Part shown: positions 1-44,416 of the stretch, piece by piece | Position numbering within the stretch: position 1 is the first letter of the stretch | How the letters are laid out: the number at the start of each line of letters is the position of its first letter | NCBI GenBank assembly: GCA_028868695.1 | Contig: JAGWTZ010000021.1 | Span: 1-46,701 of the forward strand | Reading direction: 5' to 3' | Source: Alphaproteobacteria bacterium | GTDB lineage: Bacteria > Pseudomonadota > Alphaproteobacteria > Rhizobiales > Aestuariivirgaceae | DNA: 46,701 nt | The notes under the pieces: model-generated | Database searches by the model: none | What the model was told of the DNA's origin: nothing | The model's input: only the letters and a program-made list of their open reading frames with translations | Translations under genes and position numbers: made by a program

Positions 1-2813
1 ATGATCTCAAAGCCCGTCACGCGCCAGCTTGCCGTGTCCCACTTCGGGGCCACGCCGATCAAAGCCAGGGCTTGCGCGATGTCATCGCCCCCGGTCCGCA
101 TGTTGGCGGTGCCCCAGGCGGAAAGTCCCGCAGATTTAAGGTGTTGGCCAGTCTCTTGAAAGTGGCGTGTGAGCAGCGCGGCGGCGGATTTCTGGCCCAG
201 AGCCCAGGCGGTGGGCGTAGGCAGAGTGCGGTTGTCCAACGAATAGAAATTCTTGCCCGTCGGCAACACGTCCAGCCGCCCACGCGTGGGCGCGCCCGAA
301 GGGCCGGGGGCCACCCGGTGGCCGGAGAGGCCGGTGAGGAGCGCGGAGATTTCCGCAGGGCCGCAGGCGGCGAGGGCGGGGCGGATGTTGGATTCGATAG
401 TCTGCAATACCACGCCCAACGCCTCCCTCCCCCTTGTGGGGAGGGCTGGGGTGGGGGTCGAGTGGAGTTCTAAATTTGTCCCAGCCAAAAAAAGCTCTGA
501 ATTGGGAGCGACCCCCACCCTTGATCCCTCCCCACAAGGGGGAGGGACACCGGCCCGGAGCATGGTGTTGGCCAACAGCTCAAGCCTTTCCACCGTGTCG
601 CCATTGCTGCGCCATGGGTCAATTGAAATGGCGGCAAGTTCTGCAGGGCGTGGGCCGGTCCATGGCTCCGCCATCGGGCAGGCGAGCGGATCAAACGGCG
701 CAAGACCTAGGGAATCGCTCAGTGCACGGATGAGTGAGGCATCGCCGCCTTCGCCCAGGCCGCGCGGCACGCGCGTGAGGGCCACGAGCAAATCGGCCTC
801 CTGCTGGCCGGCGGGTGAGGTTCCAAGGATGTGCAAGCCGTCGCGGATCTGCGCTTCCTTCAGATCACAAAGGAAGGCATCAAGCTTCTGCAGGTCATCA
901 TCGCTGGTGCCGCTGAGGCCGGCATCCTGATCAAGTTTCGCGCTTTGTGTGAGTTCGAAGATGCGGGCGCGCAGGTCGGCCAGCCTGCGCTTGTCGAGGC
1001 CGCTGGCCAGATAATATTCATCCACCAGCGTTTCCAAGTCCTTCATTGGCCCATAGGATTCTGCGCGTGTCAGCGGCGGTGTGAGATGGCTGATGATGAC
1101 AGCAGATGTGCGGCGCTTGGCCTGCGTGCCTTCGCCGGGGTCATTGACGATGAAGGGATAGAGCTGCGGCATGGGCCCCAGCGCCACTTCCGGCCAGCAG
1201 CTCTCGGTTAGCGCCAGAGCCTTGCCCGGCAGCCATTCGAGGTTGCCATGCTTGCCATTGTGGATGATGGCCTGCGCCCCGAAATGCTGGCGCAGCCAGA
1301 AATAGGTGGCGAGATAGAAATGCGGCGGCACGAGGGCGGGGTCGTGATAGGTGGATTTGGGGTCAATGCCATAGCCCCGCGCTGGCTGGATGGCGCAGGC
1401 CACATTGCCATGGGTGACGATTGCAAGGTTGAACGCGCCATTGGCGAACTGCGGGTCGGATTGCGGCTCGCCCCAGCGGGCGATCATCTGCGTGCGAATG
1501 GTTTCGGGCAGCGCCGCGAAGTGGCGTTGATAGTCGCCCAGCGGCATGGCAATGCCGTTGCCATCGCGGCGTGCGGCGATCAGGCTCTGCACAAGGTGGT
1601 TGCCATCATCGGGGATGGCTCCGGCGCTGTAGCCTTCCACCGCCAGCGCTTTCAAAATCGCGATCGTACTCGCCGGTGTGTCATAACCCACGCCATTGGC
1701 CACGCGGCCGTCCTTGTCGGGGTAGTTGGCGAGGATGATGGCGACTTTCTTCTCGGCATTGGGCGTTTCACGCAGCGCCGACCAGCGCGCAGCAAGATCG
1801 GCCACATAGGCAATGCGGTCTGGCTCCGGCTTGTAGGTGACGATGCGGCACTGCGTGGCGGCGTGCAGATGGTCATCGGCCTTGAAGGAAATGGCGCGGG
1901 TAAAAATGCGGCCATCCAATTCCGGCAGCACCACATTCATGGCCAGGTCCGTGGCGCGCAGGCCCTGCGATGAAGCATGCCATTCCGCCTCGGACGACCC
2001 CGCCAGCGCCACTTGCAACACAGGGCAACCCGGCTTTGCCAGTGGATCGCGCGCCTCATCGCCCACGGCAAAGCCGGTGGCATTGAGGATGACGGATGGC
2101 GGGTGCGCGGCGAAGTGTTCGGCGAGGAAGGCGGCGGAGGCTTCATCCTTCAGGCTGGAGACATAGATGGCGGCAGCGGGCAGGCCGCGCGCAGCCAAGG
2201 CTTCGGCCAGTGCATCAATGGGTGCCGTTTGGCCACCTTCAATCACTGAACGATAGAAGATGATGGCCGCCTTGGGCGACGGTGTAGTGGTGTGAAGCCC
2301 GGCCTTCGGCAAGGTTCGCGGCGCGGGCGCATCCGCTCCGGCGCAGAACTGCAGCAGCGCCTTGGCATTATCCACCCCGCCGAAGGCAAAGTATTGGCGC
2401 AGGCCCTCGACTTCCTCAGGCGGCAAGGTGGAGAGGGCCTGGAGTTCCACATCCGGTTCCTGCCCGCCGGGCAGAAGGGCGAGCTTGATGCTGTTTTCGC
2501 GCGCCAATGCCGCCACGGCTTCCACGCCATAGGGCCAATAGGCCTTGCCGCCGAGCAGGCGGATAATGATGATCTTAGCAGCACTGAGCGTTTTCTCCGT
2601 GTACAGATCAACCGAGAAATTGTGCTGCAGCTGCATCAGGTTGGCGAGGCGCAAAGTGGGCGCCGTGGCCCCCAACGCATCATGCGCTGCGGCGAGGCAG
2701 GCGAGCTCTGAATCCGCCGCCGAAAGGATCACCACGTCAGCGGGGCTTTGCTTCAGGTCGATCGCCTCGGCCCCGCCATCAACAACGCCCGATGTGGTGG
2801 CGAGGAGATGCAT
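1..2813 (-). CDS. cobN: Cobaltochelatase subunit CobN, 3' end missing
   Basis: Large subunit of the ATP-dependent aerobic cobaltochelatase, which inserts cobalt into hydrogenobyrinate a,c-diamide during B12 synthesis. About 937 residues are visible of a family usually near 1250; the C-terminus lies beyond the left edge. Family stretches include IIIIRLLGGKAYWPYG near residue 85, HNGKHGNLEWLPGKALAL near 520, and SGAPTRGRLDVLPTGKNFYS plus SAWGTANMRTGGDDIAQAL toward the end. The ATG at 2811-2813 overlaps the cobW stop by one base (TGATG), which suggests translational coupling. Between about residues 754 and 798 the frame runs without a stop through a roughly 120-bp palindromic repeat absent from the family as I remember it. 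Either the protein carries a low-complexity extra segment or its activity is affected. The partner genes cobS and cobT are not in the window. Confidence 0.93.
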   Translation of the reverse strand, partial: MHLLATTSGVVDGGAEAIDLKQSPADVVILSAADSELACLAAAHDALGATAPTLRLANLMQLQHNFSVDLYTEKTLSAAKIIIIRLLGGKAYWPYGVEAVAALARENSIKLALLPGGQEPDVELQALSTLPPEEVEGLRQYFAFGGVDNAKALLQFCAGADAPAPRTLPKAGLHTTTPSPKAAIIFYRSVIEGGQTAPIDALAEALAARGLPAAAIYVSSLKDEASAAFLAEHFAAHPPSVILNATGFAVGDEARDPLAKPGCPVLQVALAGSSEAEWHASSQGLRATDLAMNVVLPELDGRIFTRAISFKADDHLHAATQCRIVTYKPEPDRIAYVADLAARWSALRETPNAEKKVAIILANYPDKDGRVANGVGYDTPASTIAILKALAVEGYSAGAIPDDGNHLVQSLIAARRDGNGIAMPLGDYQRHFAALPETIRTQMIARWGEPQSDPQFANGAFNLAIVTHGNVACAIQPARGYGIDPKSTYHDPALVPPHFYLATYFWLRQHFGAQAIIHNGKHGNLEWLPGKALALTESCWPEVALGPMPQLYPFIVNDPGEGTQAKRRTSAVIISHLTPPLTRAESYGPMKDLETLVDEYYLASGLDKRRLADLRARIFELTQSAKLDQDAGLSGTSDDDLQKLDAFLCDLKEAQIRDGLHILGTSPAGQQEADLLVALTRVPRGLGEGGDASLIRALSDSLGLAPFDPLACPMAEPWTGPRPAELAAISIDPWRSNGDTVERLELLANTMLRAGVPPPCGEGSRVGVAPNSELFLAGTNLELHSTPTPALPTRGREALGVVLQTIESNIRPALAACGPAEISALLTGLSGHRVAPGPSGAPTRGRLDVLPTGKNFYSLDNRTLPTPTAWALGQKSAAALLTRHFQETGQHLKSAGLSAWGTANMRTGGDDIAQALALIGVAPKWDTASWRVTGFEI
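425..546. repeat. Palindromic interspersed repeat inserted in frame in cobN
   Basis: Two long arms form an imperfect inverted repeat: 425-460 on one side and about 509-546 on the other. Each arm has the core CCCTCCCCCTTGTGGGGAGG followed by a GGTGGGGGTCG-like block. They flank an A/T-richer centre of roughly 50 bp. Each core is itself partly palindromic. The design resembles the short palindromic elements scattered between genes in many Rhizobiales. Here it lies inside a coding sequence and adds whole codons without a stop. I saw no second copy in this window by eye. Confidence 0.8.
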
Positions 2814-3847
2814 CAGCCCCTGAGCGACTTCTCAATCGCCGCCTTGTCCATGGTTTTTTCGCCGATTACCACCAGGCGGGTTTCACGCTTTTCATTGGCG
2901 CGCCAGGGGCGGTCGAAATAGCTGGTCAGCCGCGGGCCCACGGCCTGGATGAGCAGGCGGGCCTCGCTGCCCGGCACTGCGGCGAAACCTTTCAGGCGCA
3001 GGATGTCATGCGCCTCAATGGTGCTGGCGATGCGGGTCAGCAGGGCCTTTTGGTCGAGTGCGCCGGGCAGGTCCACGATGAAGGTGATGAAGTCATCATG
3101 ATCATGCTGCTGTTCGCCTTCCATCTCGTGATGGGATTGGCGGTTGTGCAGGTCAATGGCGGCATCGGCCTTGACACCCAGCAGAACGGCAGGGTCAATC
3201 TCGCCATGCGTGGCGTTCACCAGCTTGGTGGCCTTGCGGAGCTGCGCCTTGAGTTGCGCTGAAACTTCGGCCAAGCCGGCGCTGTCCAGCAGGTCGGTCT
3301 TGTTCAGCACCACAAGGTCGGCGCAGTTCAGTTGGTCTTCGAAGAGTTCTTCGATGGGGTTTTCGTGGTCGAGGTTCGGGTCTGCCGCGCGGGCGGCGGC
3401 CACGGCCTCTTCATCGTCTGCAAAGCGGCCTTCGGCCAGCGCCTTGCCATCCACCAATGTGACCACGCCGTCGACAGTCACGCGCGACTTGATCTCGGGC
3501 CAATTGAAAGCGCGCACCAAAGGTTGCGGCAGGGCAAGGCCGGAGGTTTCGATGACAATGTGATCCGGCTTGCGCGGGGAGGCCAGCAGTTTCTCCATGG
3601 TGGGGATGAATTCATCGGCCACCGTGCAGCAGATGCAGCCATTGGCGAGTTCGATGATGTCATCCTCGCTGCAGGCGTCATTGCCGCAGGCTTTCAGGAT
3701 TTCGCCATCCACGCCCACATCGCCGAATTCATTGACGATCAAGGCAATGCGGCGGCCGCCGGCATTTTGCAGCAGGTGGCGCACGAGTGTTGTCTTGCCA
3801 GCACCCAGGAACCCGGTGATGACTGTTGCGGGGATTTTCTCGGTCAT
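2813..3847 (-). CDS. cobW: CobW-type GTPase / metallochaperone
   Basis: G3E-family P-loop GTPase (COG0523) tied to cobalt handling for cobalamin synthesis. The 344 residues show Walker A GFLGAGKTT at 12-20, the family metal-binding motif CICC at 71-74, an NKTD guanine-specificity motif near 178, and a His/Asp-rich stretch (SHHEMEGEQQHDHDD) near 240 that could bind metal. The C-terminal CobW_C domain follows. The start overlaps the cbtA stop by four bases (ATGA at 3844-3847) and the stop overlaps the cobN start, so cbtA, cobW and cobN should be translated from one mRNA. Position between a cobalt permease and the chelatase supports a role in delivering Co2+ to CobN, although other COG0523 proteins handle zinc or other metals. 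Confidence 0.93.
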   Translation of the reverse strand: MTEKIPATVITGFLGAGKTTLVRHLLQNAGGRRIALIVNEFGDVGVDGEILKACGNDACSEDDIIELANGCICCTVADEFIPTMEKLLASPRKPDHIVIETSGLALPQPLVRAFNWPEIKSRVTVDGVVTLVDGKALAEGRFADDEEAVAAARAADPNLDHENPIEELFEDQLNCADLVVLNKTDLLDSAGLAEVSAQLKAQLRKATKLVNATHGEIDPAVLLGVKADAAIDLHNRQSHHEMEGEQQHDHDDFITFIVDLPGALDQKALLTRIASTIEAHDILRLKGFAAVPGSEARLLIQAVGPRLTSYFDRPWRANEKRETRLVVIGEKTMDKAAIEKSLRG

Positions 3848-28793: not shown

Positions 28794-29200
28794 TGGAAAT
28801 TCTTGTTGAAGCTGGTGCGCCGCGTGGCAAGACCCCGCGCCGCCAAACGGCGGAACTCACCGCCGCCTGCCCGGTGCGCGATGTGCTGGACAGGGTGGGC
28901 GACAAATGGAGCGCGCTGGTGGTGCGCGAGCTTGCGGGCGGGGCCAAGCGCTTCGGCGTGTTGCGGCGGGCGATTGTGGATATCTCGCAGCGCATGCTCA
29001 CGGAAACGCTGCGGCATTTGCAGCGCGATGGCTTCATTTCGCGCCGGGTCATTCCGGCAACGCCGCCACAAGTGGAATATGCGCTGACGGACCTTGGCCA
29101 TTCGTTGCAGGGGGCGCTGGGCGGGCTGGCGCGCTGGTCCGAGCAGAACCACGGTGCCATCCGCGCGGCGCGGGCGGCCTTTGACCAGGGCGGCGCATAA
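28793..29200 (+). CDS. HxlR family transcriptional regulator
   Basis: Winged-helix regulator of 135 residues. The family core CPVRDVLDRVGDKWSALVVREL (about 24-45), RFGVLRRAIVDISQRMLTETLRHLQRDGFI and PPQVEYALTDLGHSL are all present. The N-terminal Cys in the core is the redox or electrophile sensor in some members. A GTG one codon upstream (28790) is an alternative start. Probably controls itself and the divergent SDR. Confidence 0.92.
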   Translation: MEILVEAGAPRGKTPRRQTAELTAACPVRDVLDRVGDKWSALVVRELAGGAKRFGVLRRAIVDISQRMLTETLRHLQRDGFISRRVIPATPPQVEYALTDLGHSLQGALGGLARWSEQNHGAIRAARAAFDQGGA

Positions 29201-40442: not shown

Positions 40443-41339
40443 CTAATGCGGGGTGGAATTGAGGCTGATCAGCGCCGTGCCCATGATGGCGATGAAAGCG
40501 CCCGCCCAGGCAGCCATGCCAGGCCTCCTGCCGGTTCTCACCCAGACCATGGGCAGGATGACAATGGGCGTCATGGATGACAGGGTGGATACGATGCCGA
40601 CATTGCCGGATTTCAGCGCCGCCATCAGCAGCACCATGCCAAGCCCGGTGCCGAAAAAGGCGGAGGTGAAGATCAGCCCGAATTCCCGGCGGCTGATGGC
40701 GACATCACGGCGGCGCAGCGCCGGCAGGGCGGCGGCGGCCCAGAAGATCACTACGGCCACGCCAATGCGCACGGCCATGGCGGCAAAGGGGTCAACACCA
40801 CTCGCCATGGCAGGCCTGGCAAACAGGCTGCCCAGCGCCTGGCCGAAGGCGGTGACAACGCCCAGCGCAATGCCAAGGCTGGAAGCCTTGGGTTCCGATG
40901 CCCCCTGTTGCGCGGACATGTGGCCGGGCAGGGCCACGGCAACGAGAATGCCGATCAGCACATAGGCAATGCCAAGGCCCTGCCAGGCCTGGATGGTTTC
41001 GCCATAGGCGCCATAGGCCAAAGCCAGCGCAAAGGGTGAGGTGAGCGAGAACAGCAGGGCCGTGAGGCGCGGCCCGGCCTTGAAGATGGTGGCGAAATAG
41101 GTGGTGGAGGCGAATACAATGCCGAAGAAGCCGGAGGCTGCCAGTTCCTCAATCTGCTTTTGCCCCAGCGAGGCCCAGCCGCCCGTCACGGTGGCGGCCA
41201 GTGCCGTCATCACGAAAGCGGCACCCAGCTGCCAGCGCGCCAGCTGCAGCAGCGGCAGGCGGTTGTTGAGTGCGGCCACAAACATCGAGCTGAGGGCGAT
41301 GCAGAAGGCCGCGGCAAGGGCGAGGGAGTTGGAAAGCAA
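40443..41339 (-). CDS. EamA/DMT family permease
   Basis: A 298-residue membrane protein with ten hydrophobic segments in two EamA repeats (about 1-135 and 150-290). The second repeat ends LSSMTPIVILPMVWVRTGRRPGMAAWAGAFIAIMGTALI, as in drug/metabolite exporters. It ends 14 bp before the FNR box of the nirK operon on the same strand. Substrate unknown. Confidence 0.87.
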   Translation of the reverse strand: MLSNSLALAAAFCIALSSMFVAALNNRLPLLQLARWQLGAAFVMTALAATVTGGWASLGQKQIEELAASGFFGIVFASTTYFATIFKAGPRLTALLFSLTSPFALALAYGAYGETIQAWQGLGIAYVLIGILVAVALPGHMSAQQGASEPKASSLGIALGVVTAFGQALGSLFARPAMASGVDPFAAMAVRIGVAVVIFWAAAALPALRRRDVAISRREFGLIFTSAFFGTGLGMVLLMAALKSGNVGIVSTLSSMTPIVILPMVWVRTGRRPGMAAWAGAFIAIMGTALISLNSTPH

Positions 41340-41491
41340 ATTTAAGCCGTTGGTTGGGCCTTGCGCTTAGCCCAGTTCGCACCGGATGGGAATGCCGCGC
41401 TGCAATGATTGCCTTGGCCGCGGCGGCAGAGTTGCTTTAAAGCTGGTGCGCCGCGGCATGCAATTGCCCCGCGGGGCTGGGCGGAGGCGGA

Positions 41492-42709
41492 GTGGCACAG
41501 GCAGTGGTTGAAGAGGCGCGGCAAGGGGCGTGGGCGCAGGTTCTCAAGTCTCCCTTGTTCCGCGGCGCCACCTTGGCCTTGTTCCTTTCAGGCATCGGCA
41601 CCTCGGCCGCAGCGCCGCAAATTGTTTCGTTTCTGGTCAAGGACCTTGGAACATCCCTGCCGGTGGCCGGCCTTTATTACCTGACCAGCCTTGCAGCGCC
41701 TCTGGCCGGCTATGTCATCGGCCAATATTCCGACCGCTCGGGCATCAGGCTTGGGTTATTCCGCCTTTGCGCCGTCATGGGCTTTGTGGGCTGGGCCGCC
41801 ATGGCGCTCAGTGCGGCGGTGTGGCAACCCTTCGTGATCGGCGCATTGCTTCTGGCATTTTCCACGGCCGCGACACCGCAGATCTTTGCCGCAGTCCATG
41901 ATGAATTGAAACACCATCCCGGACACGCCAATGAAAGCGTGGTGGGCATCATCCGCATGGCGCTCACGGCAGGCTGGATCGTCGGCCCCGTGCTGGGCGC
42001 GTGGCTGGGCACGGCTTACGGCCTGCGGGCCATGCTGTGGGCCACGGCGCTGTGCTGGCTGGCGCAGATTCTTCCGCTGGGCACGCTGCGTTCGGCACCG
42101 GGCGGGAAGGAAGGTGCGGGCGGCAAGGCGGCGGGCCATGTGGGCTTGCGCGAAATGCTTCCACTGCTGGCCTTCACCGGCTTGTTTGTGATGGTTTATG
42201 TGGGAGAGCCGATAAAATACGGCTTCCTGCTTCTCTACATGGAAGACAAGCTTCACACCGGGCCTGCCATGCGTGGCGCGGTCATCGGCATCCAGCCATT
42301 CATTGAGCTCCTCATCATGCCCTTCAGCGTCATGCTCGGAAGACGGCTGGGGAATTTCTGGCTCATGTGCATTGCCGCGGCCTGTGGCGTTGCGGCCAAC
42401 CTGTGCTTTGCGATGTGGCCCAGCCTGGCCAGCATGTTCGTGGGGCAAATCCTGATGGGCGGGGTCTGGGGCCTGTTCATGGTGTTGGGCCTCATTGTGG
42501 CGCAGCGCCTGTTGCCGCGGGCGGTCGCCACAGCGTCAGCCATTTTCATGAGCGCGATGCCCCTGGGCTCGGCCATCGGCGGCGTGGTGGGCGGGCTCGG
42601 CGTTGCGGCGCTTGGGCTGCCAAGCGTGTTCTTCCTGCCTGCCATATTCGGTGTGCTGGCCATGGCCGGCCTTGCGGCGATGGCCATGGGCGGCAAGGGC
42701 GGGAATTGA
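41492..42709 (+). CDS. MFS exporter, sugar-efflux (Set) type
   Basis: A 405-residue transporter with about 12 membrane segments. ALFLSGIGTSAAAPQIVSFLVKDLG, GYVIGQYSDRSGIRLGLF (motif A region) and GEPIKYGFLLLYMEDKL resemble SetA/SetB sugar efflux proteins. The start is the GTG at 41492, preceded by GGAGGCGGA. Substrate not predictable. Confidence 0.85.
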   Translation: MAQAVVEEARQGAWAQVLKSPLFRGATLALFLSGIGTSAAAPQIVSFLVKDLGTSLPVAGLYYLTSLAAPLAGYVIGQYSDRSGIRLGLFRLCAVMGFVGWAAMALSAAVWQPFVIGALLLAFSTAATPQIFAAVHDELKHHPGHANESVVGIIRMALTAGWIVGPVLGAWLGTAYGLRAMLWATALCWLAQILPLGTLRSAPGGKEGAGGKAAGHVGLREMLPLLAFTGLFVMVYVGEPIKYGFLLLYMEDKLHTGPAMRGAVIGIQPFIELLIMPFSVMLGRRLGNFWLMCIAAACGVAANLCFAMWPSLASMFVGQILMGGVWGLFMVLGLIVAQRLLPRAVATASAIFMSAMPLGSAIGGVVGGLGVAALGLPSVFFLPAIFGVLAMAGLAAMAMGGKGGN

Positions 42710-42716
42710 GCGCCAG

Positions 42717-43295
42717 CTATTGCGGCGGCGCTATCTTGATTGTCTTGTCGAAGATGATCCGGGCCGCCAGCGCGCCGGAGCTGCTTTGTCCCTGCTTCAA
42801 CACTTGCATGGCCACGGGCAGGTTGTTCTTGCCCTTGTAGAGCGTCAGATGTTGCAAGGCCCGCGCGCAGAGGAAAGCCTCCACATCAAAGGAATAGGCT
42901 GGCAGTTTCTTGCCTGCAAAGCTCTGCGCGCCGAGGCATTTGAGGTTGGCCAGTTTTTCCGGCTGGGCCCACCAAGGGGCTTTCAGCTCCGCCTGGCTTT
43001 CGTCCACAGCACCTTGCGGGGCAGGCTGCCAGGCGCCGCCCACCTTGATCCATCCGCCGGACAGGGTGAACACCTGTTCGCCGCCCTCCCAGGCAAAGCG
43101 CATGGCCGTGGCCGGAACCAGCTCCATGGTGATGGCCATGGGCTTGCCGCTGGAATTGTCGGTGATGGCATAGCGCAGCGGGCCTGCGGCCGTGATGGCG
43201 GCCGCCATGGATTTGACTTCGGCGGCGCAATCGGCATGTGCCGCGGTGGCCGCAACGGCCAGGCCAAGAAAAGAAAGGCTGGTAGATTTCAACAT
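42717..43295 (-). CDS. Exported protein of unknown function
   Basis: Unrecognised, 192 residues. Signal peptide ends at AAHA (about 21), then DCAAEVKSMAAAITAAGPLRYAI. The body looks beta-rich with many Trp (APWWAQPEKLANLKCLG) and three mature cysteines. It resembles periplasmic outer-membrane-associated proteins in style only. The ATG at 43293-43295 follows TGAGGAAAG. Convergent with the MFS gene, 7 bp apart. Confidence 0.72.
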   Translation of the reverse strand: MLKSTSLSFLGLAVAATAAHADCAAEVKSMAAAITAAGPLRYAITDNSSGKPMAITMELVPATAMRFAWEGGEQVFTLSGGWIKVGGAWQPAPQGAVDESQAELKAPWWAQPEKLANLKCLGAQSFAGKKLPAYSFDVEAFLCARALQHLTLYKGKNNLPVAMQVLKQGQSSSGALAARIIFDKTIKIAPPQ

Positions 43296-43384
43296 GGCTT
43301 TCCTCATCAGGTCAGCCCCCGTGCCTGTTGGGTTAGCCTGTCGCCGTAGGCTGGGCAAGGGCAGTGGCCAGCGCGTCAGCCCAT

Positions 43385-43414
43385 AGAAAAAGGCGCCGGA
43401 TGGCCGGCGCCTTG
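43385..43414 (-). terminator. Rho-independent terminator of the cytochrome c gene
   Basis: GGCGCCGG (43392-43399) pairs with CCGGCGCC (43404-43411) around ATGG. On the minus strand a TTTTTC run follows. Lies 37 bp after the cytochrome c stop. Confidence 0.82.
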
Positions 43415-43447
43415 AAGTCAGGAGGTAAGCAATTAAGACGCGAAGGC

Positions 43448-43822
43448 TTACTGCTTGGTCTTGAGGAAGGCGATGAGGTCGGCGCGCTGGGCGTCATCCT
43501 TCACGCCGGCGAAAGCCATCTTGGTGCCGGGCACCACGGCCTTCGGGTCTTTCAGGTAGGCGTCGAGGGTGGCGTCATCCCAGGCGGCGGCGGTCGCAGC
43601 ATATTTCTTGAAAGCGTCGGAATAGTTGTAGGCATCAGCCGTGCCGGGCTTGCGGCCCACAATGCCACCGAGGCCAGGGCCCACCTTGTTGGTCTTGTCG
43701 AAGGCGTGGCAGGCCATGCAAACCTTGGCCACTGCTTCGCCCTTGGCGGCATCGCCATCGGCATGCGCCAGGCTGGCGCCCGCAAACAGTGCCACACCCA
43801 CCAGAATTGCCCGCTTGATCAC
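43448..43822 (-). CDS. Class I cytochrome c
   Basis: A 124-residue periplasmic monoheme cytochrome. Signal peptide to about residue 21, heme-binding CMACH (Cys35, Cys38, His39), GPGLGGIVGRKPG, and axial Met102 in PGTKMAFAG, all as in cytochrome c550/c2 types. The start is a GTG at 43820-43822 with GGAG 8 bp upstream. A perfect FNR/NnrR box sits 63 bp ahead of the start, so it is probably coexpressed with nirK and may carry electrons to it or from bc1. Confidence 0.92.
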   Translation of the reverse strand: MIKRAILVGVALFAGASLAHADGDAAKGEAVAKVCMACHAFDKTNKVGPGLGGIVGRKPGTADAYNYSDAFKKYAATAAAWDDATLDAYLKDPKAVVPGTKMAFAGVKDDAQRADLIAFLKTKQ

Positions 43823-43884
43823 GTCCGTTACTCCATTTGATTCAGGGTTATGGCCCTCAGTATAAGCCAAGAGGCCGCAGGGCA

Positions 43885-43898
43885 TTGATGTAGATCAA
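43885..43898 (-). promoter_or_regulatory. FNR/NnrR box of cytochrome c gene
   Basis: TTGATGTAGATCAA is a perfect TTGAT-N4-ATCAA box in the divergent spacer. At -41.5 it would place the cytochrome c start of transcription near 43850, leaving a 28-base leader. For nsrR the same spacing would put transcription almost at the ATG, so the cytochrome gene is the better target. Confidence 0.8.
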
Positions 43899-43936
43899 AT
43901 ACAGCAATCTGGAAACGCGGCAAAGGAGCGCCATCC

Positions 43937-44416
43937 ATGCGATTGACCAGTTTCAGCGACTATGCCCTCAGGCTTCTCATATTCGCGGCCACGCGGCCCG
44001 AGAAGCTGGTGACTATTGCTGAGGTTTCAAGAGTTTATGGCATCTCGCGCAACCACTTGATGAAGATCACTTCGGCCCTTGCGCAAGGCGGATATGTTGA
44101 AACCCAGCGTGGCAATGGCGGCGGCTTGCGCCTTGCAAGGCCGCCCAGCGAAATTAGCATAGGTGCCGTGCTGCGCCTCACCGAGGCTTCGACCGATCTG
44201 GTGGAATGCGCCGACCGCAGGACCAACACCTGTGTCATCGCCCCGGCCTGCGGGCTGATGGGCGTGCTGTTTGACGCGCTGCAGGCCTTCTATGAGCGGC
44301 TTGACCGGGTGACGCTGGCCGACGTGACGCGCAACCCCGAGCGCCTGAACCGGATTTTCGAGCTGCAATCGCAGCGCGGCCCCGAAGCGCCAGGGCAGGG
44401 CTTGCCAAGCGCGTGA
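43937..44416 (+). CDS. nsrR: Nitric-oxide-sensing repressor NsrR
   Basis: Rrf2-family regulator of 159 residues with an Fe-S cluster that reacts with NO. MRLTSFSDYALRLLIFAA, the HTH and wing (VYGISRNHLMKI, GYVETQRGNGGGLRLARP) and cluster cysteines 91, 99 and 105 (ECADRRTNTC, APACGL) match NsrR; E. coli uses 91, 96 and 102, so the first spacing is longer. The start follows AAGGAG. An NsrR-type operator is present at the nirK promoter in this window. Confidence 0.9.
   Translation: MRLTSFSDYALRLLIFAATRPEKLVTIAEVSRVYGISRNHLMKITSALAQGGYVETQRGNGGGLRLARPPSEISIGAVLRLTEASTDLVECADRRTNTCVIAPACGLMGVLFDALQAFYERLDRVTLADVTRNPERLNRIFELQSQRGPEAPGQGLPSA

Follow-up and report, generated by a model that had tools for sequence, protein, structure and literature searches.

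Rickettsia palindromic elements (RPEs), given as 105-146 bp in the accessible part of PMC2229807, are by description among the closest known likenesses of the element reported here: palindromes of similar size that are read through in frame by conserved genes. For several species other than Rickettsia, genes that contain REPs were catalogued by Di Nocera et al. in 2013 (PMC3733652, in the accessible parts of its text, as for all statements from it here), including different REPs at about one place in recB of two Xanthomonas species; the CGTC-1 group of REP head-to-head dimers includes R. conorii RPE-6 and Neisseria dRS3. The same catalogue describes RAYT REPtrons and TIRtrons, in which a small gene lies between inverted palindromic repeats that are also found gene-free. 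Rhizobial genomes contain Rhizobium-specific intergenic mosaic elements (RIME), palindromic intergenic repeats described in the accessible part of PMC2573895, which we liken to the present repeats by description and not by sequence. The word cobN does not occur in the accessible text of PMC3733652, and a literature search for palindromic repeats with cobN returned a sole match, whose visible part deals with shrimp-pond strains. An earlier note on this DNA had regarded an alphaproteobacterial in-frame repeat outside Rickettsia, in a vitamin B12 enzyme, as notable; given the 2013 catalogue, it is not supported as a novelty.

The window, i.e. the whole stretch of 46,701 nucleotides that was analysed (genome G000), begins inside cobN, and the features that concern us are the following.

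3-2813, minus strand: cobN (cobaltochelatase subunit CobN), first 937 codons; TIGR02257, 1083.7 bits, and Pfam CobN-Mg_chel.
424-547, no strand assigned: palindromic element of 124 bp with two inverted hairpin arms, in frame in cobN at residues ~756-797; recognised by its inverted repeats and multicopy in the genome.
424-445, plus strand: outer arm, a hairpin by itself, CCCTCCCC-CTTGT-GGGGAGGG, from the inverted-repeat search.
448-472, plus strand: stretch of 25 nt identical, by sequence comparison, to the right arm that accompanies a DUF559 gene elsewhere in this genome (contig C21); it includes the inner arm 449-460.
509-520, plus strand: inner arm that pairs with 449-460, from the inverted-repeat search.
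526-547, plus strand: second outer arm, the reverse complement of 424-445, from the same search.

The cobN product belongs to TIGR02257, whose curated cut-off of 822.05 bits is exceeded by the 1083.7 bits scored on 937 residues. Because the contig begins within cobN, the 3' end of the gene and the last part of the protein (about 290 of 1226 profile positions) are absent, and a search of the source genome gave no cobN piece beyond this contig-start fragment. The adjoining open reading frame (2813-3847, minus strand) has, by eye, the look of a CobW-type GTPase. As the earlier note had stated, no stop interrupts the cobN frame across the element, and similarity to CobN continues on both sides.

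We propose, with a probability of about 0.72, that the cobN segment is a gene-less, hairpin-armed repeat, carried in frame as a tolerated disordered loop and related to units built around a DUF559 gene. A short repeat of this kind, REP-dimer or MITE-like, would have entered the tip of a helix-loop-helix of CobN with the reading frame kept, and would be translated as a disordered loop of ~41 residues, tolerated because the length of this loop is little constrained; the element would itself have arisen from DUF559 units, or be moved as they are. A CobN protein containing the insert is presumably made and working. The earlier note had missed that the repeat arms also flank a DUF559 nuclease gene and that related species have other repeats in this loop.

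The inverted arms described in the earlier note are real, but its two arms of ~37 bp are in fact helices of 22 nt and 12 nt with short unpaired spacers. The outer arms (22 nt) and the inner arms (12 nt) are each 100% complementary, whereas 100 shuffles of positions 300-700 of the window yielded exact arms of at most 13 nt. The 124 bp correspond to ~41 codons, in line with the 40-45 added residues that had been estimated, but the net gain of CobN over its three closest relatives is 30-36 residues, the loop measuring 51 residues in the window vs 15, 18 and 21 in those relatives, in which the repeat-free loop is short. With its two hairpin units in inverted order the element resembles a CGTC-REP dimer; it differs in ending with TCCCTCCCC / GGGAGGGA in place of an outer CGTC, and contains neither a CGTC nor a GTAG tag, which sets it apart from GTAG-REPs and RAYT REPtrons as well. 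In being a palindrome of the ~100-150 bp size class, in frame inside a conserved gene, it resembles RPEs. No target-site duplication was seen by eye in the insert flanks examined; not all kinds of MITE or REP produce one. An Rfam identity was looked for in window 1-3000 and rejected: five matches had E <=1 and none reached its gathering score, and the three best, which overlap the element, were animal-type miRNA hairpins that we take as chance.

The element sequence has 56 matching pieces in the 3.09-Mb source genome, and in the stretches that were fetched it forms 26 pieces; among these stretches are 15 near-full copies (111-132 bp, the cobN copy counted, three rejoined by hand from two halves). 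Of the 90 strand and frame readings of the 15 copies 48 are free of stops, so that a readable landing is easy. A Pfam scan of 16 open frames through or beside CCCTCCCC copies, covering those copies with a longer open frame, found none with a family on both sides of the copy: four frames gave families, three only downstream of the element and one, DUF559, between arms. The check on other copies in genes, proposed by the earlier note, came out as no other scanned copy of the genome inside a Pfam-supported gene. This is a difference from RPEs: apart from the one in cobN, the sole coding host found, the scanned copies are not in genes. Of 72,556 plasmid records, 20 contain similar arms (from Rhizobium, Sinorhizobium, Aminobacter, Methylobacterium, Shinella and Neorhizobium), and the nearest named records to the element are MAGs of Hyphomicrobiales or Alphaproteobacteria. 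A RAYT was considered as mover and rejected for the source genome, which has 0 matches to PF01797 (Y1_Tnp); such a match is present in 11 of the 37 genomes searched.

One copy locus of the source genome, on contig C21, consists of arms around a DUF559 endonuclease gene, and the cobN element shares with this unit an identical 21-nt hairpin and 25 nt of identical arm. Like a MITE, it has arms in common with a gene-bearing unit of the same genome, and this match is a possible clue to how the repeat spreads. Further CCCTCCCC arms crowd around the DUF559 gene (L063, 2500-3039), and contig C21 ends just beyond the right arm of the unit. The arrangement resembles RAYT REPtrons and TIRtrons in general plan and differs from RAYT REPtrons in its gene, which is DUF559 endonuclease-like and not a tyrosine transposase. 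The genome has a second DUF559 unit (C47), whose arm is found at 29 places with <=3 mismatches. Two of these places belong to that unit, ten make up five short inverted pairs (121-150 bp), and the others are placed differently.

To score arms around DUF559 genes, the two 400-bp flanks of the domain were searched for their best inverted repeat (+1/-2, threshold 17), some flanks being shortened by contig ends. With one locus per relative, 22 of 30 reached the threshold when the discovery locus L139 was included, and 21 of 29 without it; so did 16 of 29 loci in a sample of other members of the class, and 12 of twenty further loci partly hand-picked for nearby repeats. Scores fell below 17 in 8/30 of the first set, 13/29 of the class set and 5/10 named records. 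Neither HxlR control genes from the same set of 61 genomes (0/30, highest 12) nor 320-bp segments taken at random from the window and the cobN loci (0/400, highest 15) reached the threshold; the window has an HxlR-type regulator gene of its own at 28895-29152 (PF01638 match). A harder control paired the left flank of one DUF559 locus with the right flank of another: the 95% point was 26 and the maximum 235, and in a second run 5.8% of pairs scored >=17. Since arms resemble one another from locus to locus, this control is not a clean one. Even so, 38 of the 59 loci that were not selected for repeats (a set that contains the discovery locus) score >=17 within 200 bp. For 24 of the 38, no right arm among all 59 matches the left arm as well as the one at the same locus does; 58 of the 59 have the D..E.DG motif. 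In the plasmid collection 44 records have a DUF559 match. Ten were examined, and five have arms scoring >=17 (S. meliloti Ak57 pSymB, 102; D. psychrotolerans, 53; A. lipoferum, 24; Sphingomonas parapaucimobilis, 23; Deinococcus NW-56, 20), the others being two A. brasilense records, Sinorhizobium K101, Shinella and E. coli.

The DUF559 units look inserted. On the D. psychrotolerans plasmid (L178, 1088-1583) the unit lies in the paa (phenylacetate) cluster, right after the paaD stop; in Deinococcus QL22 the gap between paaD and paaZ is 83 bp, and neither unit nor arms were seen there by eye. In Sinorhizobium C101 a unit stands between two genes that, by eye, abut in Shinella PSBB067, in a part that automatic alignment places poorly. 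We suggest tentatively, at somewhat under even odds, that DUF559 genes with inverted arms are widespread and so far unrecognised REPtron-like mobile units of Alphaproteobacteria and Deinococcus, in which the enzyme may move the arms, and whose gene-less dimers would be MITEs, some of them becoming protein segments. Another account is about as likely: a nuclease gene may have invaded the centres of repeat dimers and now hitchhike in a homing-like manner, DUF559 not being the mover. The units do look like repeat dimers whose centre holds a gene, the solved relative 3hrl goes by the name endonuclease-like, DUF559 is presumably kin to Vsr-like and PD-(D/E)XK enzymes, and some genomes have repeats without a DUF559 match (G018, with 41 hairpin matches); at the two empty sites, however, unit and arms are, by eye, missing together. 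DUF559 becomes a testable candidate mover for a large group of bacterial palindromic repeats. Apart from the family itself, PADLOC and NCBIfam gave weak partial matches of DUF559 to anti-phage proteins. In the printed arms no link between CGTC repeats and DUF559 was seen. The literature covered for a link of DUF559 with repeats is a word search of two papers, neither of which contains 'DUF559'.

The CobN loop near query residue 754, here called site D, was compared in an alignment of 45 genomes, 32 of the window's genus and 13 rows from other families; five further genomes of the genus (G006, G014, G015, G024 and G032) did not yield this part of CobN. In the printed stretch, site D measures 51 residues in G000 and 49 in G016, vs 10-21 in element-free rows. 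A palindromic element, a decayed element or a remnant is present in 16 of the 32 genus rows and in 0 of the 13 other rows. Two of these inserts are of the CCCTCCCC type (G000 and G016, in the same frame) and 14 are of the CGTC type, several beginning with CGTC; the inserts of many relatives fit the CGTC-REP dimer family (CGTCATTCCCGC...GGGAATGACG), whose tag the window's own element does not have. In G000, G016 and eight CGTC-type rows (G003, G020, G021, G036, G017, G008, G026 and G009) inverted-repeat scores of 12-31 stand against maxima of 7-11 in 40 shuffles per row. G034 is narrowly above its own shuffles (10 vs 8) and G029 below (7 vs 12), both being counted as occupied on sequence and peptide; in G005, G010 and G023 no palindrome is seen, and these rows are included for their homology with G026, and G022 has an apparent 5' remnant on our reading of its sequence. 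Among related species, a single permissive loop of a vitamin B12 enzyme has taken up repeats of unrelated families.

The nearest relatives of G000 and G016 lack the element that these two share, or have a CGTC-type one. The site D columns were left out of a CobN tree, which requires 6 or more changes between presence and absence (7 if G022 and G034 are called empty), and 7 with families as states; it is a gene tree, some of its branches are weak, and only 47% of the G009 row is filled. A single ancient CGTC-type insertion in the ancestor of the genus, later converted by other copies, replaced or deleted, could account for part of this same-site pattern. Most CGTC-type inserts start at one codon and in one frame across deep branches, the centres in G003 and G021 are related, and the remnant in G022 agrees with such a history; on the other hand, G029 starts in another frame, G020 has a different centre from its sister G003, and the two CCCTCCCC-type inserts fall outside any single old CGTC insertion because they are unrelated to it in sequence and stand in separate clades. 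As an account of the whole we find it rather doubtful, and prefer repeated entry of gene-less repeats into a tolerant loop.

Structural comparison, another check that had been suggested, places the insert at the loop of a helix-loop-helix. In an AlphaFold model of CobN (38 sequences, mean pLDDT 79) pLDDT is <50 for residues 759-789, which are bracketed by helices at 737-752 and 796-829; the alignment with the solved CobN 9uk9 breaks off after query residue 759 (799 of 9uk9) and resumes at 801 (807 of 9uk9), so that residues 800-806 of 9uk9 stand opposite query 760-800. From model and structure together, the insert is probably a disordered extension of a loop of variable length.

In G005, G010 and G023 the palindrome is gone and the peptide is nearly unchanged. 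Over 22 codons, nonsynonymous differences per site are 0.051-0.070 and synonymous ones 0.40-0.82 (Fisher p of 2.8e-6, 0.0099 and 1.3e-8, from rounded counts). The rest of CobN in this clade has a dN of 0.024-0.025, that of the insert being two to three times as large; against G026 the insert has a dN of 0.24-0.32 and the rest of CobN 0.08-0.10. Since the peptide has outlived the palindrome in one lineage, the fate of coding palindromes can be traced on a tree. This conservation might mean that the protein has adopted the insert in at least one lineage, the peptide being selected rather than merely tolerated, which we consider unlikely: only three close sequences are involved, the insert is less constrained than the remainder of the protein, and nothing similar can be argued for the perfect palindrome of the window itself. 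The predicted RNA fold of the element region is very stable (-109.3 kcal/mol over 195 nt), as would suit an element that acts as RNA, in processing or attenuation within the cobN message, with an incidental peptide; the loss of the hairpin with retention of the peptide in the same three genomes makes this decidedly improbable. An assembly error or a decaying cobN, towards which the start of the contig inside the gene and the tendency of repeats to break assemblies might point, is very improbable, because the separately assembled G016 has a same-family element in the identical place and frame, and the cobN frame is open, with whole-gene identities of 72-77% to the three nearest relatives.

CobN is unusual as a host of these repeats. 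The CCCTCCCC peptide gave 283 matches (summed from the table) against 37 genomes of the genus, and among the matches listed the only stop-free frames of >502 residues were cobN of G000 and G016; the CGTC peptide gave 82 matches in 14 genomes, with four stop-free frames of >436 residues, all of them cobN (G003, G020, G021 and G008). Nine other long element-bearing frames, hand-chosen from seven genomes, included two with Pfam families, both downstream only. None of the exact-pattern CGTC copies, 21 in G000 and 22 in G020, has Pfam families to its left and right within one gene. Open frames that extend 30 residues or more to each side of such a copy number 20; all were scanned, and one gave a family, on one side only; variants are missed because an exact pattern was used, and four G020 matches (C61:47097 and three on C63) were left out of the scan. 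General in-frame insertion into other genes was thus not found within the Pfam-scanned copies and the peptide searches, tests that are blind to genes without a Pfam family and to diverged copies.

CobN itself has elements at other sites too: G008 carries them at sites A and B, and four genomes (G016, G003, G036 and G051) at site C. Site C, another CobN loop, holds a different palindrome (L046, L047 and L049), and its inserts in G016 and G036 (L046 and L049) share 28 nt with the arm of the second DUF559 unit (C47). Inserts at site C are also present in G011 and G031; those of G018 and G019 score under the shuffled maximum and that of G001 one point over it (13 vs 12), and the CobN of G041 contains a CCCTCCCC hairpin whose inverted repeat is not above its own shuffles. 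In G020 a CGTC repeat (C63:44227-44250) lies ~80 bp off the cobN match (40523-44146), besides the one within the gene, and the cobN of G008 (L045) carries three separate CGTC-type elements, at sites A, B and D, all in frame.
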